DNA of 64,000 nucleotides from an uncultured Caulobacterales bacterium (GTDB lineage Bacteria > Pseudomonadota > Alphaproteobacteria > Caulobacterales > Caulobacteraceae): NCBI GenBank assembly GCA_903884425.1, contig CAISEP010000016.1, positions 372,001 through 436,000 of the forward strand, read 5' to 3'. Shown here piece after piece: positions 14,368 through 62,777 of this stretch; within the stretch, counting starts at the first letter, position 1; every line of letters starts with the position of its first letter. The position numbers and the translations under genes are program-made. Below the pieces are notes generated by a model. The model saw only the letters and a list, made by a program, of their open reading frames with translations, was not told where the DNA came from and searched no databases.

Positions 14368-17300
14368 ATGAGCGACGCGAACGACAATGATGGCGGCCAG
14401 GGCGGCCCGGGTGCTGGAACTCCTGGCGGGACGTCGCCTGGCGGGCGTGCGCCCCTGACCCTCAAGCCGAGGGCTCCGGGCGTCAATACAGGCGTGGTCC
14501 GGCAGAGCTTCAGCCATGGCCGCTCCAAGACCGTCGTGGTCGAGACCAAGCGCCGCCGCGAGGGTGAACGCCCCGTCGTCGAAGCCCGTCGACCCGCCGC
14601 ACCGGTGGTGGCACCGCCCCGTGCGGAGGCCCCGCCTCCGCCGCGCCCCGCCGCACCTGCGGCCCCGGCCTCGGGATCGACCCTCAACCTGTCCCAGAGC
14701 GAACTGGCCGCGCGCCAGCGGGCCCTGGACGCCGCCCGCATCGCCGCCGAGCGCCAGCGGGCCGAGGCCGCCACGCGGGAAGCCGCCGCCCGGGCCCAGG
14801 CCGCGGCTGCCGCCGCTGCAACCCGGGAAGCTGCGCCGCAGACCTCCGAAGCCCCCTCTCCCGCGCCCGTGGCCCCTTCGGCACCGGCCGCCGCCGCCCC
14901 GCCGGTCGCTGCCGAACCGGTGAGCCGCCCGGCCGCGACGGCGACCCCGGAGGCCCCTGCGACTGTCAGCCGTCCGGTCCTGTCCCAGGCCCCCCGGCGC
15001 GACGATCCTCCCGCTGCCCCGCGCCCGGTTCGCCAGGACCCGCGCAATGACGGCCGCACGCCGGAAGGCCGCGTCTATGAAGCGCCGCGCCGGGAAGGCT
15101 CCTCCTATCCGGACCGGACGGCCCGTCCGGCGGGCCAGGACCGGCCCATGCCCGATCGTGGCATGGCGGACCGCGGGCCCCGCCCCGCCGGCCAGGGCTA
15201 TGGTGACCGCGGGCCCCGCCCGACGGGTGACCGCGGCCCGCGCCCGGCCGGCCAGGGCTATGCCGGGGATCGCCCCCGTCCCGCCCCCGGCGAGACCGTA
15301 CGTTACTCGGCGCTGGCCCCCCGCCCCGCGGGACCCCGCACCGGAGGCCCGCCCCTGCGCGGCGGTGCCGCCGCCCCGTCGGCCCCGGAGATCACCAAGA
15401 CCGCCCGGACCGCTCCGCCCCGCGCCAATGATCGTCGCCCCGCCCCCGTGGTGGATGACGAGGAGGGCGCGCGCCGCCGCGGCGGCCCCGGCGGGCCGAA
15501 GAAGGCCGAGCCCACCAAGGCCGTCTCCCGCGTCAAGGGCGAGCCCAAGCGCCGTGAAGGCCGTCTGACCATCCAGGTCGCCGCCGGCGAAGAGGGCGGC
15601 GACGACCGCATGCGCTCCCTCGCCTCGGTCCGCCGCGCCCGGGAACGGGAACGGGAAAAGCGCGCCCGGGGCCTCGGTGGCCTCGACGCGCCGAAGGTGG
15701 TCCGCGACGTGGTCATCCCCGACGCCATCACCGTGCAGGACCTTGCCCAGCGGATGGCCGTGCGGGCCGTGGACATCATCAAGTACATGATGCGCCAGGG
15801 GGCCATGCTGACCATCAATGACGTGCTGGACGCCGACACGGCGGAGCTGATCGCCACGGAATTCGGCCATGCCGTCACCCGCGTGTCGGAAAGCGACGTG
15901 GAAACCGGGTTCATCTCGGAGGACGACCGGGTCGAGGACACCCTGTCCCGGCCGCCGGTGGTGGCCGTCATGGGTCACGTGGACCACGGCAAGACCTCGC
16001 TGCTGGACGCCCTGCGCTCCGCCGGCGTGGCCGCCAGCGAGCACGGGGGCATCACCCAGCACATCGGGGCCTATCAGGTCACGCTGGAGTCCGGCGACAA
16101 GGTCACCTTCCTCGACACGCCCGGTCACGCTGCCTTCTCCGCCATGCGGGCCCGCGGGGCCAATGTGACGGACATCGTGGTTCTGGTGGTCGCCGCCGAT
16201 GACGGGGTCATGCCCCAGACCATCGAGGCGATCCATCACGCCAAGGCCGCCGGGGCCCCGATCATCGTGGCCATCAACAAGATCGACAAGCCAGACGCCG
16301 ACCCCACGCGGGTCATCAACGAGCTGCTCAGCCACGAGATCGTGGTCGAGGCGCTGGGCGGTGATACCCAGGTGGTGGAGGTGTCCGCCCTGAAGAAGAC
16401 CGGTCTCGACACCCTGCTGGAGTCGATCCTGATCCAGGCCGAGGTCATGGACCTGCGGGCCAATCCGGACCGCTCCGCCGAGGGCGTGGTGATCGAGTCC
16501 AAGCTCGACAAGGGTCGCGGCCCGGTGGCCACGGTGCTGGTCAAGCGCGGCACCCTGAAGCGCGGCGACATCGTCGTGGCCGGTGCGGCCTGGGGCCGTG
16601 TGCGGGCCCTGATCAACGAACGCAACGAGCAGATCCCCTCGGCCGAACCGTCGACCCCGGCGGAGATTCTCGGCCTCGACCAGACCCCTGATCCCGGCGA
16701 GACCTTCGCCGTGGTGGAGAACGAGGCCCGCGCCCGGGAGCTGACCGAGTATCGCGAGCGGGTGAAGCGCGACAAGGCCGTCTCGCCGATCACGGCGGGC
16801 TCGAGCCTCGCCGACATGATGGCCAAGCTCCAGACCAAGAAGGTCTCGGAACTGCCGATGATCATCAAGGCGGACGTGCAGGGCTCGGCGGAAGCCATCA
16901 TGGGGGCCCTGGACAAGCTGGGCACCGACGAGGTCCGCGCCCGGATCATCCACTCCGCCGCCGGTGCCATCACCGAAAGCGACGTGCTGCTGGCCAAGGG
17001 GGCCAACTGCTCCATCCTCGGCTTCAACGTCCGGGCCTCGCGCCAGGCGCGGGACCTGGCGGAGCGGGAAGGCGTCGAGATCCGCTACTATGCGATCATC
17101 TACGACCTGATCGACGACATCAAAGGCGTCATGTCGGGCATGCTGGCCCCGATCCAGCGGGAAACCTTCCTGGGCAATGCGGATGTGCTGCAGACCTTCG
17201 ACATCTCGAAGGTCGGTCGCATCGCCGGGTGCAAGGTCTCCGAGGGCGTGGTCCGCAAGGGGGCCAAGGTCCGGATCATCCGCGACAATGTGGTGATCCA

Positions 17301-49868: not shown

Positions 49869-50452
49869 GAAATCAGTTCCCCCCTGTCCCGGAGATAGCC
49901 CAGCACATCCAGAAGCGGCAGGCCGAGCACGGTGAAATAATCACCGTCGACCCGTTCGAACAATTGCGAACCTTCCGCCTCGAGATGATAACCGCCGACG
50001 GAGGACAGGACCGCCGGGCCGTTCCGCGCCAGATATCCCTCAAGCCAGGTGTCGGAGAACATCCGGACCTGCAGCTGGACGCTTCTGACCGCGCGCCAGA
50101 CGGGACGACCGTTCTCCGCCATCACGGCGGCGGAGTGCAGGACATGCCGACGCCCCCGCAGGTCCAGCAGGGTCTGGCGCAATCCGGCAAGGTCTTCGGC
50201 CTTGTCGATCAGCCGACCCTCCAGGTCGAGGGTCTGGTCCGCCCCGAGGACCAGTCCCGGCCGGCGGGCGGAGACACGGACGGCCTTCAGCTCCGCCAGG
50301 GCGTCGGCCATGTCCCGAGGGGTCAGGCCGTCCTTCGACAGGGCCTGCTTGGCGAGGACTTCGTCCACCCCCGGCGCGGTGGCGGTGATCTCGACCCCGG
50401 CGGCGCGCAGCATGGCCTGCCGCGCCGCGCTGGTGGAGGCGAGGGTGATCAC
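49865..50452 (-). CDS. maf: Maf family nucleoside triphosphate pyrophosphatase
   Basis: 195 residues. House-cleaning enzyme for modified or canonical nucleotides. Seen: [17 protein letters not shown] (S/R substrate motif), [21 protein letters not shown] and [31 protein letters not shown]-type C-terminal motif. Starts at GTG 50452 overlapping the ppsR stop. Which nucleotide it prefers cannot be read. Confidence 0.92.
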
Positions 50453-51309
50453 GCGGACGGACCCGCCGACGCCGGTCGGCCCGACTGGCGGGCGTTGAGC
50501 AGATTTATCACCGCCGCGGCCGTTTCCTCCACCGACCGGCGGCTGACATCGATCACCGGCCAGCCCTGGCGCTCGAACAGGCGCCTCGCATTGACGATCT
50601 CCTCCCGCACCGCGTCGGCATCCACATAGCTGCTCTCCCGGTTCTCGTTGAGGGACAAGAGGCGGTTGCGACGGATCTGGATGAGCCGGTCCGGAGACAG
50701 GATCAGGCCGACGATGAGGGGGCGGGTGGTCCGGAACAGCAGTTCCGGCAGGGTGGCACCGGGGACGAGGGGGACATTGGCTGCCCGCACGCCCCGATGG
50801 GCGAGATAGATGGAGGTCGGCGTCTTGGAGGTCCGGCTGACCCCCACCAGCACCACGTCGGCGCTGTCCAGATTCTGCCCGCCCTGGCCGTCATCATGGC
50901 CGATGGCATAGTTCAGGGCCTCGATCCGGTTGAAATAGTCGGTGTCCAGGGCGTGCTGCGCGCCGACCCGGGTGGAGAGCTGGGCCCCGAGATACCGCCC
51001 AAGCGCCGCCGTCATCGGGTCCAGGGCCGCGACGCACGGGGTCATCATGCTCCGGCAGCCGTCCTCCAGCGTGGTCCGGAGCTCCCGGTCGACGATGGTG
51101 TGGACCACCATGCCCGGCGCGTCCTCGATTTCCCGCAGCACCCGGTCCAGCTGCCGGTTGGACCGGACCAGGGGATAGATGTGCTCGATGGGAAGGATGT
51201 TGTCGAAGCGGGCGCAGACGGCCTTGCTGATGGCATTCAGCGTCTCGCCGGTGGAATCCGACACCAGGTGGACGTGGAAGTAGGTAGCCAGACGGGCAGC
51301 ACCGACCAT
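50449..51309 (-). CDS. ppsR: Bifunctional kinase/pyrophosphorylase (DUF299, PPSR family)
   Basis: 286 residues. Family regulates PEP synthase or pyruvate phosphate dikinase by ADP-dependent phosphorylation. Seen: [19 protein letters not shown]-loop-like [33 protein letters not shown] and [19 protein letters not shown]. In Caulobacter the DUF299 gene (RP001) flanks the replication origin; here too it borders the 641-bp gap. First of a chain of stop-start overlaps with maf, aroE and coaE. Confidence 0.93.
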
Positions 51310-51603
51310 GTAGGACTTCCAGGCTTCGGTGCCCTCACGGCGACCGGGTCAACAGGCTAGGGCGCATCGCCCGGGAGATCGCGGACAAATCAGTGGACAG
51401 AATTGCGGATAGTCCGCCGACCGTCTGGGGATGCGTCCTGACAAGACGCGGTCTTGCGCGGAAATCCAAGAGCCTCGCGGGATTTCGGGGACAGTTGGTT
51501 CATTTTTTCCACCGCCGGGCCCACGGGTGGACGAGGTTCTCCCCGGGGTCGGGAAAACCGCGGTCGGGACCGCTGGCCGGTTCGGTCTGTCCCAAGGCTG
51601 TGG

Positions 51604-51618
51604 TTAATTATTCGTTAA
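51604..51618. promoter_or_regulatory. CtrA box in candidate origin
   Basis: TTAATTATTCGTTAA: two exact TTAA half sites with a 7-nt spacer. CtrA binding at the Caulobacter origin represses replication in swarmer cells; the same role is inferred here. Confidence 0.6.
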
Positions 51619-51631
51619 GCATTTCCATGTG

Positions 51632-51646
51632 TTAAAAAAGGCTTAA
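51632..51646. promoter_or_regulatory. CtrA box in candidate origin
   Basis: TTAAAAAAGGCTTAA followed by C: exact TTAA-N7-TTAAC. Starts 28 bp after the first box. Confidence 0.6.
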
Positions 51647-51652
51647 CGGCTC

Positions 51653-51661
51653 TTGCCCACA
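51653..51661 (+). promoter_or_regulatory. DnaA-box-like site in candidate origin
   Basis: TTGCCCACA differs from TTATCCACA at two positions. It lies directly beside the CtrA boxes. A weaker TTTTCCACC occurs at 51505-51513. Confidence 0.35.
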
Positions 51662-51684
51662 GACCACCCCAGTCCGGGAAAGGG

Positions 51685-51699
51685 TGAACGAATTGTTAA
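51685..51699. promoter_or_regulatory. Near-perfect CtrA box in candidate origin
   Basis: TGAACGAATTGTTAA has one mismatch in the left half site of TTAA-N7-TTAA. Confidence 0.4.
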
Positions 51700-51950
51700 T
51701 ATTCTGTCATGAGAGCGTGAAAATTCCGGTCTGTCCCCGGTCTGGGCGGCCCTACTGCCTCCTCTCAAAACTCTTTCCAAGATTCTATTCAGAGATAAGA
51801 GGCCTGGCGGGACGGGAGTGGGTATGACTCCGGGTAGGGCCTTGAGGGTCGCGCCGATTGCGGGTTTATACGGGTTCCGGAGCACCGGACGGATCGGCCG
51901 ACGATCCGGACACCGGCGCTTTGCCGACTGGACGAAGGGATCGTAAGCTC

Positions 51951-53027
51951 GTGAGCCTGAAACGCCGCCGTGTCGCCGTGGTGCTGTTCAACCTCGGGGG
52001 TCCCGACGGCCCGGACGCGGTTCGCCCGTTCCTATTCAACCTGTTCCGGGACCCGGCCATCATCGGGGCCCCGGCCTTCGTGCGGCTGCCCCTGGCGGCG
52101 CTGATCTCCACCACCCGGGCGCCGTCGGCCCGACGCAACTATGCGATCATGGGTGGGGCATCGCCCCTGCTTCCGGAGACTGAGGCCCAGTCCGACGCAC
52201 TGCTGGCCAGGCTGACCGCGCAGGACCCGGACACGGACTACCGGACCTTCATCGCCATGCGCTACTGGAAGCCCTTCACCGAGGTGACGGCGCGGGCGGT
52301 GGCGGACTACCAGCCGGACCATGTGGTCCTTCTGCCCCTCTATCCGCACTTCTCGACCACCACCACGGGGTCCTCGGTGAAGGCGTGGTCCAGGGCCTAC
52401 CGGGGGCCTGGCCAGGTGCACACGGTGTGCTGCTACCCCACGGCGGACGGGTTCATCGACGCCCATGCGGCGCGCATCCTGCAGTGCTGGAAGGATGCCG
52501 GATCCCCGGCCGGTGTCCGGCTGCTGTTCTCCGCCCACGGTCTGCCGGAAAAGGTGATCCAGGCAGGGGACCCCTACCAGTCCCAGATCGAGGCGACGGC
52601 CGCGGCCGTGGCAGCCCGGCTGGGGGAGGGATGGGACTGGCAGGTCTGCTACCAGAGCCGGGTGGGTCCGCTGAAATGGATCGGCCCCTCCACCACGGAC
52701 GCCATCCAGAAGGCGTCCGAGGACGGGAAGGGCGTGCTCGTCACCCCCATCGCCTTCGTCTCCGAGCATGTGGAGACCCTGGTGGAGCTGGATCACGAAT
52801 ATGCGGAGCTGGCGAAGGCACAGGGCGTGACCCCCTATCTCCGCGCCCCGGCGCTCGGCATTTCGGAGGCCTTCATCGGCACCCTGTCCGATGCCGTCAC
52901 GGCCGCCGTGGCCGCTGAGGGCGTTGCGCCCTACCGCTGGCCGGGCTGCGACGGGTGCCACGCCCAGTGCCCCCGACCCCGCGGCGGGGCCACGGCCCCA
53001 TCTCCGGAGGAGAGGATCCCCGCATGA
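51951..53027 (+). CDS. hemH: Ferrochelatase
   Basis: 358 residues. Inserts iron into protoporphyrin IX, the last step of haem synthesis. Seen: VVLFNLGGPDGPDAVRPFL, RYWKPFT, LPLYPHFSTTTTGSS, FSAHGLPEKVI (catalytic His), PIAFVSEHVETLVELDHEY (Glu). The C-terminal CDGCHAQCP gives three clustered cysteines, suggesting the [2Fe-2S] form known in Caulobacter. GTG 51951 chosen, with AAGGGA 10 nt upstream. First gene on the right side of the candidate origin; overlaps hemJ by ATGA. Confidence 0.95.
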   Translation: MSLKRRRVAVVLFNLGGPDGPDAVRPFLFNLFRDPAIIGAPAFVRLPLAALISTTRAPSARRNYAIMGGASPLLPETEAQSDALLARLTAQDPDTDYRTFIAMRYWKPFTEVTARAVADYQPDHVVLLPLYPHFSTTTTGSSVKAWSRAYRGPGQVHTVCCYPTADGFIDAHAARILQCWKDAGSPAGVRLLFSAHGLPEKVIQAGDPYQSQIEATAAAVAARLGEGWDWQVCYQSRVGPLKWIGPSTTDAIQKASEDGKGVLVTPIAFVSEHVETLVELDHEYAELAKAQGVTPYLRAPALGISEAFIGTLSDAVTAAVAAEGVAPYRWPGCDGCHAQCPRPRGGATAPSPEERIPA

Positions 53028-53476
53028 CCGAGCACTACAACCTCATCCGCGGCCTCCACATCCTGGCAGTGATCGCCTGGATGGCGAGCCTGCTCTATCT
53101 GCCGCGGCTGTTCGTCTATCACACCCGCGCCATCCCGGGGGGCGAGCTCGACACCACCCTGCAGGAGATGGAGCTCAAGCTGTCCCGGATCATCATGGTC
53201 CCGGCCATGACCGCGGCCCTGCTGTTCGGCCTGACCCTCATCTGGATCGACAGCCACACCCGCGGCTGGGGATTCCTGCTGAAGCCCTGGATGATCCTGA
53301 AGCTGCTCGGGGTGGTGGTCCTGTTCGGCTATCACGGCTTCCTGGCCCGCAGCCGCCGCCGCTTCGCCGCCGGGGAAAACACCCGCAGCGAGCGGTTCTG
53401 GCGCATGACCAACGAGATTCCCTTTGCCGCAGCCATTGTCATCGTCCTGTCCGTGACGACCAAGTTTCTCGACTGA
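53024..53476 (+). CDS. hemJ: Protoporphyrinogen IX oxidase HemJ
   Basis: 150 residues, four predicted membrane helices. Seen: IRGLHILAVIAWMASLLYLPRLFVYH (conserved His in helix 1), MELKLSRIIMVPAM and LKPWMILKLLGVVVLFGYHGFLA (conserved Lys/His). HemJ oxidises protoporphyrinogen IX, supplying the substrate of HemH. Start ATG 53024 overlaps the hemH stop and has GGAGGAGAGG before it. Confidence 0.92.
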   Translation: MTEHYNLIRGLHILAVIAWMASLLYLPRLFVYHTRAIPGGELDTTLQEMELKLSRIIMVPAMTAALLFGLTLIWIDSHTRGWGFLLKPWMILKLLGVVVLFGYHGFLARSRRRFAAGENTRSERFWRMTNEIPFAAAIVIVLSVTTKFLD

Positions 53477-53712: not shown

Positions 53713-55071
53713 ATGACTGACGAGATTGAAATTCCGGCCGAAGCGGCCCTCGAAACAGACGGTGCCGAAGGCGCGGCCGAGCCGAACCTGGCCGAATCCC
53801 TGGGCGTGACGCGCATGTCACTCCAGGAGCTCAAGGAAAAATCCCCTGCAGATCTCCTGGCCTTCGCCGAGAGCCTGGAGATCGAGAACGCCAATTCCAT
53901 GCGCAAGCAGGACATGATGTTCGCGATCCTGAAGGCCCTGGCCGATGACGGGGTCGAGATTTCCGGCTCCGGCGTGATGGAGGTGCTGCAGGACGGGTTC
54001 GGCTTCCTCCGCAGCCCGGAGGCCAACTATCTGGCCGGTCCGGACGACATCTACGTCTCGCCCACCATGATCCGGAAGTACGGCGTCCGCACCGGCGACA
54101 CGGTGGACGGGCCCGTCCGCGCCCCCCGGGAAGGCGAGCGCTACTTCGCCATGACCAAGGTGGACAAGATCAACTTCGAGAACCCCGACAATGTCCGGCA
54201 CAAGGTCCACTTCGACAATCTGACGCCCCTCTATCCGGACGAGCGCCTGTCCATGGAGATGCTCGATCCGACCCTGAAGGACCGGTCGGGCCGGATCATC
54301 GACATCGTCTCGCCCCTCGGCAAGGGCCAGCGCTGCCTGATCGTCGCCCCGCCCCGGGTCGGCAAGACCATGATGCTGCAGAACATCGCCAAGTCGATCG
54401 CGGCCAATCACCCCGAATGCTATCTGATCGTGCTTTTGATCGACGAGCGGCCGGAAGAAGTGACGGACATGCAGCGGACGGTGAAGGGCGAGGTGATCTC
54501 CTCCACCTTCGACGAGCCCGCCACCCGTCACGTGGCCGTGGCCGAAATGGTCATCGAGAAGGCCAAGCGCCTGGTGGAGCACAAGCGGGACGTGATCATC
54601 CTGCTGGATTCCATCACCCGCCTTGGCCGCGCCTACAACACCGTCGTGCCGTCCTCCGGCAAGGTGCTCACCGGCGGCGTTGACGCCAACGCCCTGCAGC
54701 GGCCCAAGCGTTTCTTCGGTGCCGCCCGGAACATCGAGGAGGGCGGCTCCCTCACCATCATCGCCACGGCCCTGATCGACACCGGCAGCCGGATGGACGA
54801 GGTGATCTTCGAGGAGTTCAAGGGCACCGGAAACTCCGAAATCGTCCTCGACCGCAAGGTGGCGGACAAGCGGGTCTTCCCGGCCATGGACATTCTCAAG
54901 TCCGGCACCCGCAAGGAGGAACTGCTGGTTCCGAAGGACCAGCTGCAGAAGACCTATGTGCTTCGCCGCATCCTCAACCCCATGGGGGCGCAGGACGCCA
55001 TCGAGTTCCTCATCGACAAGCTGCGCCAGTCGAAGAACAACGCCGACTTCTTCCAGTCGATGAACACCTGA
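53713..55071 (+). CDS. rho: Transcription termination factor Rho
   Basis: 452 residues. RNA-dependent hexameric helicase/ATPase. An acidic N-terminal extension (1-34) precedes the Rho N-domain ([21 protein letters not shown]), the RNA-binding cold-shock-like domain with [22 protein letters not shown], and the ATPase with [12 protein letters not shown] (Walker A), [14 protein letters not shown] and [16 protein letters not shown] 53713 chosen; the 236-nt leader after hemJ contains no gene I can see and may serve autoregulation. Confidence 0.96.
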
Positions 55072-57123: not shown

Positions 57124-58424
57124 ACGAGACCCTCTATGCCCTGGCCACGGCACCCGGCCGGGCCGCGCTTGCGGTGGTGCGACTGTCAGGGCCGGACAGT
57201 CGGCGGGTTCTGGAGACCCTGACCTGTCGCCCGGCCCCGAAGGTCCGGCAGATGCAGGTGCGGCAGATCCACGGGCCCGACGGCGGGCGGGTGGATGAAT
57301 GCCTTGTTGTCTGGTTCAAGGGCCCCGGCAGCTTTACCGGGGAGGACGTTGTCGAACTGCATCTGCACGGGGGGGCGGCTGTGGTGGCCGGGGTGACCGC
57401 GGCCCTCGAGGCCGCGGGTTGCCGTCCGGCCGGCCCCGGAGACTTCACCCGCCGCGCCTTCGAGAACGGACGGCTGAGCCTGGCCGAGGCCGAAGGTATT
57501 GCCGACCTGATCGATGCGGAGACGGCCCAGCAACGGTCCCAGGCCCTGGAGCAGATGGGGGGTGCCCTGGACGAACGCTTTGCCCGCTGGCGGACGAGCC
57601 TGATCGGCGTGCTGGCCCTCCTCGAGGCGGCCATCGATTTTCCGGATGAGGATCTCCCCGACGACGTGGCCGCCGGTGCGCTGGAGGCTCTGAAGGCCCT
57701 CGATGGCGAACTTGAGGCGGCCCTCGGCTCGGCCCGGGGGGAGCAGGTCCGCGAAGGGTTCCGGGTCGCCCTGATCGGTCAACCAAACGCTGGAAAATCC
57801 AGTCTATTCAATAGTTTGATTGGTCGGGAGGCGGCCATTGTCACCCCTCTGGCCGGTACGACCCGGGACGTGATCGAAGCCGATCTCGTTCTCGGCGGCT
57901 ATCTCGTCCGCATCGCCGACACGGCGGGCTTGCGGGATACGGACGACATCATCGAGACCGAGGGGGTGCGCCGAGCCCGTGCCTGGGCGGACAGCGCGGC
58001 CTTGCGTCTGTGGGTGGCCGACGGAACGTTGCACGTGAAACATCTGCCGCCCTCCGGCTCGCAGGACTGGTGGGTTCTGACCCGGGGGGACAGGGGTGCG
58101 GCAGACGTGACCGGGCCCTACCGCTTCCGGGTGGATGCCCGTGCTCCGGAAACCCTGACCGCCTTGACGGGTGCCCTGCGGGATCATGTGGCAGCAACCC
58201 TCTCCGGCGCGGATTTCCCGGCAGTGACCCGACTTCGGCACCGGCAGATCCTTGGGGAGGCGCGGACGGCCCTGGGTCGCGCCATTGGCGGCTTCGGGCG
58301 TCCGCCGGAGCTCGTGGGCGAAGACGTCCGGCTGGCGGCCCGGGCGCTGGAGCGTCTGGCGGGACGGATCGGATCGGAGGATGTTCTGGACCAGGTGTTC
58401 CGGTCCTTCTGCATCGGAAAGTAG
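57120..58424 (+). CDS. mnmE: tRNA uridine-5-carboxymethylaminomethyl modification GTPase MnmE
   Basis: 434 residues. With MnmG it makes cmnm5/nm5 modifications at tRNA wobble uridine 34. N-terminal folate domain (YALATAPGRAALAVVRLSGP), helical domain, inserted G domain (IGQPNAGKSSLFNSLIG, TPLAGTTRDVIEADL, DTAGLRDTDDIIE), and the C-terminal FCIGK motif with catalytic Cys. A parS-like site lies inside the gene and a perfect one starts directly after the stop. Confidence 0.96.
   Translation: MNETLYALATAPGRAALAVVRLSGPDSRRVLETLTCRPAPKVRQMQVRQIHGPDGGRVDECLVVWFKGPGSFTGEDVVELHLHGGAAVVAGVTAALEAAGCRPAGPGDFTRRAFENGRLSLAEAEGIADLIDAETAQQRSQALEQMGGALDERFARWRTSLIGVLALLEAAIDFPDEDLPDDVAAGALEALKALDGELEAALGSARGEQVREGFRVALIGQPNAGKSSLFNSLIGREAAIVTPLAGTTRDVIEADLVLGGYLVRIADTAGLRDTDDIIETEGVRRARAWADSAALRLWVADGTLHVKHLPPSGSQDWWVLTRGDRGAADVTGPYRFRVDARAPETLTALTGALRDHVAATLSGADFPAVTRLRHRQILGEARTALGRAIGGFGRPPELVGEDVRLAARALERLAGRIGSEDVLDQVFRSFCIGK
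58027..58042. promoter_or_regulatory. parS: Degenerate parS-like site within mnmE
   Basis: CGTTGCACGTGAAACA differs from TGTTTCACGTGAAACA at two positions, one half being perfect. Confidence 0.5.
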
Positions 58425-58440
58425 TGTTTCACGTGAAACA
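58425..58440. promoter_or_regulatory. parS: Perfect parS centromere site between mnmE and mnmG
   Basis: TGTTTCACGTGAAACA is an exact 16-bp match to the conserved chromosomal parS palindrome bound by ParB. It begins at the first base after the mnmE stop codon and is 2.6 kb from parA and 3.4 kb from parB. Confidence 0.95.
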
Positions 58441-58526: not shown

Positions 58527-60416
58527 ATGATCCATCAGACCGCCACAACCCTGCCGGACAGGACCTGGGACGTGATCGTCATCGGCGGCGGCCACGCGGG
58601 TGTGGAGGCCGCGACGGCATCGGCTCGCACCGGTGCGGCAACCCTGCTGGTGACCCATCGGATCGACACCCTTGGGGAGATGAGCTGCAACCCCGCCATC
58701 GGTGGCCTGGGCAAGGGCCATATCGTCCGGGAGATCGACGCCCTGGACGGTGTGATGGGCCGGATGGCCGATCGGGCGGGGATTCAGTTCCGCATGCTCA
58801 ACCGCTCCAAGGGACCGGCGGTCCGAGGTCCGCGGGCCCAGATCGACCGGGCCCTGTACCGAAAGGCCGCGGCAGAGGTGCTGGCCGACTATCCCAATCT
58901 CGACATCGTCGCCGGGGCCGTGGATGACCTGGTGTTTCACGTGGAACAGGTTAGCGGCGTGATCCTGTCCGACGGCCGGACCTACACGGCCCAGGCCGTG
59001 GTCTTGACCACCGGAACCTTCCTGCGGGGGGTGATCCTGCGGGGCGACGAGCGGATTCCCGCGGGCCGCCACGGAGAGGCCCCGGCCGTGGCCCTGGCCG
59101 ACAGGCTGTATGCCGCCGGCCTCCGGATGGGGCGACTGAAGACCGGGACCCCGGCCCGTCTCGACGGACGGACCATCGCCTGGTCCCGCCTGGAGATGCA
59201 GGCGGGAGATGCCGAGCCCATCCCGTTCTCGTTCCTGACCGAGCGGATCACCGGGACCCAGGTCGCCTGCGGCGTCACCTGGACCAATGACGAGACCCAC
59301 CGGATCATCGCCGAGAATCTCGGGGAGTCGGCGGTCTATGGGGGCAAGGCCCACGGGGTCGGCCCGCGCTACTGCCCGTCCATCGAGGACAAGGTGGTCC
59401 GCTTCGCCGACAAGACCAGCCACCAGATCTTTCTCGAGCCGGAGGGTCTGGATGATCCCACCGTCTATCCCAACGGCATCTCCACCTCCGTCGCGCCGGC
59501 GACCCAGGACGCCTTCCTGAGGACCATCCCGGGTCTGGAGGCCGTGGAAGTGTTCCGCTACGGCTATGCCATCGAGTACGACTATGTGGACCCCCGGGAG
59601 CTGCGGCCGTCCCTCGAATGCAAGCGGGTGCCCGGGCTGTTCCTGGCCGGGCAGATCAACGGCACCACCGGATACGAGGAAGCCGCGGGGCAGGGGCTTG
59701 TGGCCGGGCTGAACGCCGCGCGTCTGGCCGCCGGTCTGCCCTCGGTGACCTTCGCCCGGGACGAGGCCTATCTGGGCGTAATGATCGACGATCTGGTGAC
59801 CCGCGGTGTGTCGGAGCCGTACCGGATGTTCACCAGCCGAGCGGAGTTCCGTCTGCTGCTCCGCGCCGACAATGCCGATCAGCGTCTGACCGCCCGGGGG
59901 ATGACCCTCGGACTGGTGGGAGCGGAACGGGGCGCAGCCTACACCAACAAGGCGGCCGCGCTGGGCGACGCCCGGCAATTGGCGGCACGGCTGACCCTGA
60001 CCCCGAAGAGCGCCCGGGAGCAGGGGCTGTCGGTGAACGCCGATGGCCAGCGGCGCAACGTGCCCCAGCTGCTCGCCTGTCCCGGCGTGACCCTGGATCG
60101 TCTGGCCGGGATCTGGCCGGAGCTGGGTGACTGGAGCGGGGAGATCCGCGAGCAGATCGAGATCGATGCCCTCTATGCCGGATATCTGGACCGCCAGGCC
60201 GCGGACGTGGCGGCTTTCCGCCGGGACGAGGATCTCCGCCTCGATCCGGACCTGGACTACCGCCAGGTGGGCGGGCTGAGCCATGAGGCCATCGAAAAGC
60301 TGTCCACGGTGCGTCCCGTCACCCTCGGCCAGGCCGCGCGGATCGAGGGAGTCACGCCCGGTGCCCTGACCGCGCTGCTGGGCCATGTTCGACGGGGCAC
60401 CCCCGATGCCGCCTGA
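58527..60416 (+). CDS. mnmG: tRNA uridine-5-carboxymethylaminomethyl synthesis enzyme MnmG
   Basis: 629-residue FAD-dependent partner of MnmE. Seen: [21 protein letters not shown] (FAD), [83 protein letters not shown] and [18 protein letters not shown], all family motifs. Carries a second parS-like site near its 5' end. Overlaps rsmG. Confidence 0.96.
58933..58948. promoter_or_regulatory. parS: parS-like site within mnmG
   Basis: TGTTTCACGTGGAACA has one mismatch to TGTTTCACGTGAAACA and combines the two half-site versions known from bacterial parS sites. Located inside the mnmG coding sequence. Confidence 0.85.
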
Positions 60417-61050
60417 AGCCGCAGCAGTTGAAACGGCCGGACGGGAACGGTTCCAGGCGCTTACGGGGGCTGCCCCCGAGGCCATGGAACGGATGGACGC
60501 CTATCTTGCGCTCCTCACGGACTGGAATTCCCGGATGAATCTGGTGGGGCCCACCGCGCTCGGGGAGTTCTGGGAGCGCCACGCCCTCGACAGTGCCCAG
60601 CTGCTGACCCACGCCCCGGATGCCCGGATCTGGGCCGACATCGGCGCGGGCGCCGGCTTCCCCGGCCTGGTCCTGGCGATCCTGCTTCAGGGCCGACCGG
60701 GTGTGACCGTTCACCTGATCGAAAGTATGGCCAAGCGCTGTGCTTTTCTGCGGGCTGTGTCGGTCGCGCTCAATCTGCCCACACAAGTCCACAACGCCCG
60801 GGCCGAATCCCTGCACTTATCCCCAGTGGATGTGGTGACGGCGCGGGCCTGTGCCCCGCTGCCCCGACTTTTGGAGTATGCTCGACCCCTGCTCCGAGGC
60901 CCGGCCATTGCCCTTTTCCTGAAGGGGAAGGACGCCGAGAACGAACTTGCGGAGGCTCGCAAGACCTGGCGGTTCACCGCGACGCTGCTGCCCAGCGTCA
61001 GCGGGCCGGACGGCCGGATCATAAGACTTGAAAGGCTCGCCCGTGTCTGA
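60406..61050 (+). CDS. rsmG: 16S rRNA (guanine-N7) methyltransferase RsmG
   Basis: 214 residues (ATG 60406; ATG 60385 is an alternative). Methylates G527 of 16S rRNA. Seen: [24 protein letters not shown] motif [58 protein letters not shown]. Overlaps mnmG by 11 bp and parA by 8 bp in the conserved mnmG-rsmG-parAB order. Confidence 0.95.
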
Positions 61051-61861
61051 CCCGATCCCTGAAACCCCTGTCCGTCCCCGGGTCCTGGCCGTCGCCAACC
61101 AGAAGGGTGGCGTGGGCAAGACCACCACGGCGATCAATCTCGGCACGGCCCTGGCGGCGGTGGGAGAGCGGGTGCTGATCGTCGACATCGATCCCCAGGG
61201 CAATGCCTCCACCGGCCTGGGCGTCCGCCGGGAACAGCGGGCCCGGACTATCTATGACGTGCTGGTGGGCGGGGCCGCCATTGCCGACACGGTGGTTCAC
61301 ACCACGGTTCCGGGTCTCGATCTGATGCCGTCTGACGCGGATCTGTCCGGCGCGGAGATCGAACTGGGTACGGCCAATCGCCGGTCCTACCGGCTTCGCG
61401 ATGCCATCGACGGCATGCCGGCCGGAAGTGCCTATGACTATGTGCTGATCGATTGTCCGCCGTCCCTGAACCTTTTGACGGTGAACGCCATGACCGCGGC
61501 GGATGCGGTGCTGGTTCCCCTGCAATGCGAGTTCTTCGCCCTTGAGGGGCTGACCCAGCTGATGCGGACGGTGGACCTGGTGCGGGGCAGTCTCAATCCC
61601 CGCCTGGAGATCCAGGGGGTGGTGCTGACCATGTACGACCGGCGCAACAGCCTGTCGGAGCAGGTGGCCGCCGATGTCCGGAGCCACTTCGGGGACAAGG
61701 TCTACAACTCGGTCATTCCCCGCAATGTCCGGGTGTCGGAGGCACCGTCCTTCGGCAAGCCGGTGCTGATCTATGACCTGAAGTGCGCCGGCAGCCAGGC
61801 CTATCTGCGCCTGGCCCGGGAAGTCGTCGGACGCGAACGTGCGCGCCGCGTTGCGGCCTGA
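61043..61861 (+). CDS. parA: Chromosome partitioning ATPase ParA
   Basis: 272 residues. Deviant Walker A ANQKGGVGKTTTAINLG, VDIDPQGNASTGLG, DYVLIDCPPSLNLLT (Walker B), and LVPLQCEFFALEGLTQL, as in chromosomal ParA/Soj. Drives origin segregation with ParB-parS. GTG 61043 with AAAGG 8 nt upstream is chosen; TTG 61028 is an alternative. Overlaps the rsmG stop. Confidence 0.95.
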   Translation: MSDPIPETPVRPRVLAVANQKGGVGKTTTAINLGTALAAVGERVLIVDIDPQGNASTGLGVRREQRARTIYDVLVGGAAIADTVVHTTVPGLDLMPSDADLSGAEIELGTANRRSYRLRDAIDGMPAGSAYDYVLIDCPPSLNLLTVNAMTAADAVLVPLQCEFFALEGLTQLMRTVDLVRGSLNPRLEIQGVVLTMYDRRNSLSEQVAADVRSHFGDKVYNSVIPRNVRVSEAPSFGKPVLIYDLKCAGSQAYLRLAREVVGRERARRVAA

Positions 61862-61871
61862 GGAACGGAAC

Positions 61872-62777
61872 ATGGCAGAACAACAGGCAGGTCGTCGGGG
61901 TCTGGGTCGGGGATTGTCCGCCCTTCTGGGAGAGTCCGATCCGGCCCTCGCCTCGGCGGATCCGGGGGTGCCGGGGGAGTCCCAGGGGAGCCTGGAGATC
62001 GCCATCGAGCTCCTGCGCCGAAACCCGGACCAGCCCCGCCGGTACTTCGACGAGGCGGATCTGGAGGACCTGGCGGCCTCGATCCGGGAGAAGGGAATCC
62101 TGCAGCCCATCCTGGTCCGACCGGCCCCCGGTGCGGCTGGGGAATACCAGATTGTGGCGGGAGAGCGCCGCTGGCGGGCGGCCCAGCGGGCCGGGCTTCA
62201 CAAAGTGCCCATTCTGGTGCGTGAGTTCGACGATCTCGACGTGCTGGAGATCGGCATCATCGAGAACGTGCAGCGGGCGGACCTTAATCCCCTGGAAGAG
62301 GCCAATGGCTACAAGGCGTTGATGGAGCGGTTCGGCCGGACACAAGATGTCGTGGCCCTGACCGTCGGGAAGAGCCGCAGCCACGTGGCCAACATGCTGC
62401 GGCTGCTGAACCTGCCCGAAGGGGTGCGGGAGCATCTGGCGGAAGGTCGGATCAGCATCGGCCATGCCCGGGCCATCGCCTCGGCCCCGGACCCGGCCTT
62501 CCTGGCCGAGGCCATCGTCAAGCACGGCCTGTCCGTGCGCCAGGCGGAGCAGATGGCCCGCAAGGCCGCCGACCGCCCCTCCCGCCCGGCGGGCCGGACG
62601 TCCAGGAGCGCGGCGGCACCGGCAAACGCCGATGTGGCGGCGATCGAACACGATCTGGCCGAGGCCTTGGGGCTGGCGGTTCAGCTGATCTACAACGATG
62701 GCAAGGGGGAAGTGCGGATCCGCTACGAAACCCTCGACCAGCTGGACGACATCTGCCAGCGCCTGACCAGCCGCTAG
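61872..62777 (+). CDS. parB: Chromosome partitioning protein ParB (CTPase, parS-binding)
   Basis: 301 residues. N-terminal GRGLSALLG motif for ParA contact, LRRNPDQPRRYFDEADLEDLAASI, the GERRWRAAQRAGL CTP/clamp motif, ENVQRADLNPLEEANGY, HTH VGKSRSHVANMLRLLNLP, and a C-terminal dimerisation domain. Binds the parS sites in mnmE/mnmG. ATG 61872 follows GAGGAACGG; 10 nt after parA. Its stop overlaps the nth stop tail to tail. Confidence 0.96.
   Translation: MAEQQAGRRGLGRGLSALLGESDPALASADPGVPGESQGSLEIAIELLRRNPDQPRRYFDEADLEDLAASIREKGILQPILVRPAPGAAGEYQIVAGERRWRAAQRAGLHKVPILVREFDDLDVLEIGIIENVQRADLNPLEEANGYKALMERFGRTQDVVALTVGKSRSHVANMLRLLNLPEGVREHLAEGRISIGHARAIASAPDPAFLAEAIVKHGLSVRQAEQMARKAADRPSRPAGRTSRSAAAPANADVAAIEHDLAEALGLAVQLIYNDGKGEVRIRYETLDQLDDICQRLTSR

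Follow-up and report, generated by a model that had tools for sequence, protein, structure and literature searches.

The locus analyzed here raises the question of whether an intergenic gap bounded by ppsR on one side, as in Caulobacter crescentus, and by hemH instead of hemE on the other is still the origin of chromosome replication. The gap (51310–51950; 641 bp) lies in a window, by which we mean the whole 64-kb stretch of DNA under analysis (G000:C16:372001-436000), on a 521,598-bp contig (C16) of a 3.58-Mb genome in 24 contigs. To its left is ppsR (DUF299/COG1806 kinase-pyrophosphorylase; 50449–51309, minus strand; Pfam PF03618, E 1.7e-91), and to its right, on the plus strand, are hemH (ferrochelatase; 51951–53027; PF00762, E 3.5e-104), hemJ (UPF0093; 53024–53476; PF03653, E 2.3e-48), and rho (53716–55071; Pfam Rho_N, Rho_RNA_bind, and ATP-synt_ab). 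An initial annotation had described all neighboring genes as running outwards from the gap, and this orientation was confirmed: the minus-strand order is ppsR-maf-aroE-coaE-dnaQ, and the plus-strand order is hemH-hemJ-rho followed further on by mnmE, mnmG, parA, and parB, where aroE, coaE, dnaQ, and mnmG are putative names, given with the help of synteny.

The gap was also annotated as the longest non-coding interval of the window, with AT-rich runs, and both descriptions hold. In a rough codon-periodicity map, the run at 51300–51960 is exceeded only by one at 14550–15480, which sits within a long ORF resembling what we take to be infB. The gap is enriched in AT, as expected of a Cori-type origin, with 59% GC (41% AT) against 69% GC (31% AT) for the window, and it contains the window's most AT-rich 200 bp (54% AT, at 51601), a segment that coincides with the CtrA boxes described below; on the 521,598-bp contig, ten other stretches exceed this core in AT content.

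Several CtrA boxes, another feature of Cori-type origins, were recovered from the core as initially reported: two exact copies of TTAA-N7-TTAA (box 1, 51604–51618; box 2, 51632–51646, starting 28 bp after box 1) and a third copy with one mismatch (box 3, 51685–51699, starting 53 bp after box 2). Exact sites number three in the window, against a shuffle mean of 0.00, and 19 in the genome, where only boxes 1 and 2 lie close together; the gap also holds the only 300-bp stretch of the contig in which three sites occur when one mismatch is allowed. The window's remaining exact site (1973–1987) stands alone in an AT-rich patch near 1851–2050, is unrelated to the gap, and is perhaps an ordinary CtrA target promoter.

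To place these boxes in a comparative context, we examined 110 ppsR loci, comprising 30 of the 59 matches of one search and 80 of the 139 of another, with genomes partly shared between them. Three loci whose contigs end before any gene (L019, L106, and L115) were dropped, leaving 107, of which 91 are distinct by their first 200 gap bases. The closest relatives by ppsR include uncultured Caulobacterales bins at 97% (L093), 93% (L094), and 85% (L096) protein identity. CtrA boxes with at most one mismatch occur in 88 of the 91 distinct orthologous gaps (3.9 in shuffles) and exact boxes in about 73 (72–73; 0.2 in shuffles), whereas none of the 91 adjoining 600-bp ppsR coding stretches contains a box at up to one mismatch; the shuffles used here, and likewise for the DnaA-like 9-mers, TCCCC/GGGGA strings, and promoter pattern considered below, were mononucleotide shuffles. 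The comparison with related origins that had been proposed thus came out in favor of the annotation. Within the window's genus, the boxes also keep their register: box 1 is exact in L004 and L006 with one mismatch in L005, the step to box 2 is 28–29 bp in all three, and L005 and L006 both have an exact box 3 after a step that is again 53 bp. Within the gap, they start at 295/323/376 in the window, 294/322/375 in G033, and 294/323/376 in G054, while the hemE-keeping G045, a member of the same genus (L006), has all three boxes exact, with the same steps, at 283/311/364; the gap of G020 carries only a pair, with starts at 320 and 384.

The remaining motifs are less distinctive. The annotated DnaA-box-like site is present as a single 9-mer, TTAACCACA (51599–51607, minus strand), which differs from TTATCCACA at one position, overlaps CtrA box 1, recurs in L004 and L005, and is the only such site within one mismatch in the gap; among the relatives, DnaA-like 9-mers at this threshold are found in 47 of the 91 distinct gaps (9.2 in shuffles). 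A search of the gap for the IHF consensus WATCAN5WTR gave no match, at a stringency that may have missed a weak site. The TCCCC/GGGGA strings and GANTC sites that had been listed as origin features do exist, with four and two copies in the gap, but these counts are weak against the 2.0 and 0.7 expected by chance. Two of the strings are weakly W-box-like: a GGGGA (51427–51431, minus strand), where CTGGGGA occupies the same column in 8 of 11 aligned sequences including the window, and a TCCCC (51734–51738, plus strand), where TCC is found in all 11 and TCCCC in 7, both judged by eye. Separately, the stretch at 51730–51765, around TGTCCCCGGTCTG...GGCCCTACTGCCTCC, which sits between the CtrA boxes and a promoter-like element, appears similar by eye in several relatives and matches none of the motifs tried. 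An Rfam search over the window at gathering scores returned only a tRNA. As for a CcnA-like RNA, the C. crescentus ncRNA is said to have CtrA boxes at its boundaries (PMC8959179), a layout that the three clustered boxes of the gap do not provide.

Beyond the gap, a perfect 16-mer parS (58425–58440) is accompanied by sites with one mismatch (58933–58948) and two mismatches (58027–58042). With two mismatches allowed, the genome has no parS-like sites beyond these three, and they lie 6.4–7.3 kb from the CtrA boxes and near parA (61028–61861) and parB (61839–62777), both on the plus strand (Pfam AAA_31, ParB_N, and HTH_ParB), so that the proximity of parS characteristic of Cori-type origins is observed here as well. 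The genome further encodes a match to the CtrA model (NF045991; 415.5 bits, cut-off 350) and a GcrA match.

The published account of C. crescentus agrees with the reference drawn upon in the initial annotation: its origin is located between hemE and COG1806 (PMC1914354) and is described as having CtrA sites, five in all, with weak DnaA boxes close to such sites and a parS within 8 kb (PMC4468827). The gap in our window shares with this origin the COG1806 (ppsR) flank typical of the Cori type, CtrA boxes, AT-richness, a parS within about 8 kb, and, on the opposite flank, a heme gene that a promoter faces. It differs in having three clustered CtrA boxes, one of them imperfect, instead of five, with none near the promoter; in lacking a G-box (TGATCCACA), for which the gap was searched at up to one mismatch; and in its right flank, where hemH follows directly. 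The next gene after the gap is hemE in 85 of the 91 distinct gaps and hemH in six, and the usual order in relatives is origin-hemE-hemH-hemJ-rho. Because hemH and hemJ are the usual second and third genes, hemE alone is missing in the window. The proposal of a rearranged flank is therefore right insofar as ppsR is kept and hemE is gone, but hemH-hemJ did not take the place of hemE, which they normally follow. Seven other sampled genomes likewise depart from the hemE flank of the Cori type, and this flank is perhaps better seen as the usual neighborhood of such an origin than as part of its definition.

On the strength of orthology in gene order, the conservation of CtrA boxes among relatives, the nearby parS and parAB, and the presence of ctrA and gcrA, we read the ppsR-hemH gap as very probably the chromosome's origin of replication, as the initial annotation had suggested, and as an orthologue of the Caulobacter Cori. 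The origin as such belongs to a familiar class and is no surprise. On this reading, DnaA would open the AT-rich core near 51.6–51.8 kb, CtrA would occupy the three boxes in the core and block DnaA in non-replicating cells, and ParB–parS about 7 kb from the gap would segregate the origin copies.

The gap also carries a putative promoter facing hemH (51842–51870, plus strand), with a −35 element TTGAGG (51842–51847), a 17-bp spacer, and a −10 element TTTATA (51865–51870), placed 80 nt before the hemH GTG at 51951. The corresponding pattern, TTGAG-N17-TTTAA[GC] with up to two mismatches in the −10 and the sixth −35 base free, is found in 86 of the 91 distinct gaps against 1.0 in shuffles, a test that speaks to non-randomness only, as the pattern was framed after viewing these sequences. 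A generic sigma-70 scan passed over this element and reported a different site, on the minus strand. Because the first ATG, taken as the hemE start, follows the −10 by a median of 7 nt in 80 hemE-bearing gaps, the hemE message of Caulobacteraceae is predicted to be leaderless. The element is kept in all six gaps with hemH next and, in a closely similar form, in G046; the pattern is not matched in G055 or G016, each of which has a TTGAC in a comparable position (by eye). Origins of hemE-keeping Caulobacteraceae such as the same-genus G045 (L006) share the three boxes in register and the same element with our window, and differ in that hemE stands between promoter and hemH. In the lineage of the window, hemE was lost from between origin and hemH, the native gene now being on another contig, and the element stayed with the origin and came to face hemH-hemJ.

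A CtrA box starts within 75 bp upstream of the element in only 15 of the 86 gaps. Caulobacter sp. BP25 (L131) has CtrA boxes close to the promoter, unlike the window, where the nearest box starts 157 bp before the −35; because the window is not among the 15, direct CtrA control of its element is doubtful. In C. crescentus, hemE transcription reportedly plays an important part in replication and can be repressed by CtrA (PMC8959179), and a promoter within Cori is labeled as one that replication requires (PMC4287350). The element may have been kept for replication or simply because hemH needs a promoter. Lineages in which hemE is gone and the element kept amount to a natural separation of gene and promoter, which makes the role of that transcription testable.

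The presence of this conserved element, and the fact that CtrA boxes do occur at promoters, would also fit a gap that is simply a CtrA-regulated divergent promoter region for ppsR and hemH, with the origin elsewhere. GC skew lends no support to an origin at the gap: the whole-chromosome minimum that was to be looked for could be sought only on the contig, since the assembly is in 24 contigs, and there no turn in skew is evident at the gap (p = 0.81, 95 kb on either side). Nor was a readable turn seen in 40 stretches (a 30% sample) of PMMR1. Skewed 8-mers were also derived from PMMR1 and their polarity traced along the contig; the best change point fell 278 kb before the window start, with no usable signal. 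GC skew therefore counts neither for nor against an origin at this position. Against a plain promoter region stand the orthology to the experimentally defined Caulobacter origin, the clustering of three boxes, and the genome's only parS cluster about 7 kb away, and we consider this reading improbable.

Alternatively, the origin could have moved together with hemE, leaving the ppsR-hemH gap as an old CtrA-regulated promoter region, with replication starting upstream of hemE on contig C17. There is a precedent in the predicted origins of Wolbachia and Anaplasmataceae, which share with our case the exchange of an alphaproteobacterial origin flank gene by rearrangement; as described for Wolbachia, the origin stayed with hemE when COG1806 left, whereas here COG1806 (ppsR) stayed and hemE left (PMC1914354). 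On C17, however, only about 200 bp (by eye) separate hemE from the next possible reading frame upstream, that contig carries none of the genome's 19 exact CtrA sites, and parS and parAB remained on the ppsR side; we rejected this scenario as highly improbable. Finally, an assembly or binning error behind the absence of hemE is scarcely credible: although five of the six distinct hemH-next gaps come from metagenome bins or the window's genome, the ppsR-hemH join lies inside a 521-kb contig, the same order is found in three same-genus bins (L093, L094, and L096) and in the single-contig PMMR1 record (L100), and each of these genomes has one hemE match, located elsewhere.

Tallying positions by hand in 60 genomes, we found ppsR in 59, hemE in 59, and both in 58. 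The two genes are side by side on the same contig in 48 of the 58 and apart in eight (G000, G020, G033, G054, G011, G027, G046, and G055); the other two (G034 and G057) have ppsR at a contig end and were left unassigned. G021 gave no ppsR match, G016 gave no hemE match and has rho directly after the gap, and in G055 no hemH was found on the origin flank either. On an IQ-TREE phylogeny of ppsR, maf, and aroE from 39 genomes, the displaced state (nine genomes, including G016) requires six changes, five of them forced by well-supported branches, where changes may include returns, G016 and G034 sit on long branches, and G027 contains gaps. When G016, G034, and G057 are omitted, a FastTree version yields five changes. 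Several related lineages show this departure of hemE, and most of them carry photosynthesis genes or are closely related to bacteria that do.

The single hemE of the window's genome lies at C17:104484-105479. In the hemE tree, the displaced gene of the window's genus clusters with that of the origin-keeping G045, much as the species do. In G000 and G054, it is flanked by a tetR-like gene on one side and an isocitrate-lyase gene on the other, and in G033 it adjoins the tetR-like gene, where the contig ends. A search for the empty site at this locus in six genomes found no tetR match at E 1e-15 in G020, G041, and G012, and a relative with 53% identity at a contig end in G045. In G020, hemE lies between yebC and a PAS-HTH regulator. 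The hemE genes of G027 and G011 are only 51–52% identical to that of the window and have hemC behind them; together with those of G021, G046, and G055, they form a separate, well-supported clade whose sister relationship to the main Caulobacteraceae hemE has weak support (0.89). This clade may represent an old paralogue or a transfer, and the 28 outside sequences included yielded no donor.

Matches to bchF (PF07284; bacteriochlorophyll synthesis) were detected in 7 of the 60 genomes: five of the eight with displaced hemE (G020, G033, G054, G011, and G046) and two with unassigned flanks (G021 and G034). None was found in the 48 genomes with hemE at the origin, nor in G000, G027, and G055 among those with hemE displaced. 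Fisher's exact test over the 56 assigned genomes, which ignores relatedness, gives 1.5e-5. On the FastTree phylogeny, bchF requires five changes, hemE-away subtrees hold 19% of the branch length, and the chance of four bchF origins all falling in these subtrees is, as a rough figure, ~0.0014. In two of the five bchF-positive genomes with displaced hemE, the gene itself lies among photosynthesis genes: in G020, a PAS-HTH_8 regulator, BchF, a protochlorophyllide-reductase-type subunit, and a magnesium-chelatase-type large subunit are found within 10 kb, and in G011, hemE-hemC is surrounded by a B12-binding protein, a PAS-HTH_8 regulator, and UbiA-, FAD-, and Mg-chelatase-type proteins, about 8 kb from the bchF match. 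A lycopene cyclase gene follows hemC in G027, bchF and hemE are on different contigs in G033 and G054, and the few hemE neighbors examined in G021, G046, G055, and G000 revealed no photosynthesis cluster.

We tentatively entertain a joint reading of these patterns, in which the adoption of bacteriochlorophyll synthesis could repeatedly have drawn hemE away from the cell-cycle-controlled origin flank, the promoter being kept with its transcription serving replication. Under a similarly speculative account of the routes, either the native hemE would have moved, as into the photosynthesis cluster of G020, or a distant hemE would have been used, as in the two genomes with hemC behind it. The two nearest sampled relatives of the window's genome, G033 and G054, are bchF-positive; because G000 groups with them, its lineage may have lost phototrophy, as judged by bchF only. 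If the joint reading is true, an origin flank without hemE marks present or past phototrophy, and the window's genome belongs to a lineage that lost photosynthesis. Should the link survive wider sampling, it would tie the place of a metabolic gene at the origin to way of life and provide a marker for whether the Caulobacterales ancestor was phototrophic. A 2025 study describes photosynthesis clusters as patchy but widespread in Caulobacterales and leaves ancestral phototrophy open (PMC12700997); its main text mentions neither hemE nor 'origin of replication'. In the literature accessible to us, where the primary Cori papers are represented by papers citing them, we encountered neither a reported departure of hemE from a Caulobacterales origin nor a reported photosynthesis link.

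The only genome without a URO-D match, G016 (L289, G016:C6:174000-193999), is a 2.0-Mb member of the family and possibly a heme auxotroph; its gap keeps two exact CtrA boxes together with perfect TTATCCACA and TGATCCACA DnaA-type 9-mers. Among the matches listed, tblastn gave only weak hits to hemE remnants in the gaps (best E 0.21), and a recognizable hemE start, by blastn and by eye, is kept only in G027, the sister of the hemE-keeping G040; in G027, roughly the initial 15 codons of the former hemE persist downstream of the promoter. After hemE loss, an ATG near the old hemE start opens a short frame, as seen by eye in L009 (G027), L010, and G046 (L286). In L009, this frame resembles the hemE start and its stop overlaps the hemH start (ATGGATGA), an arrangement that suggests translational coupling.
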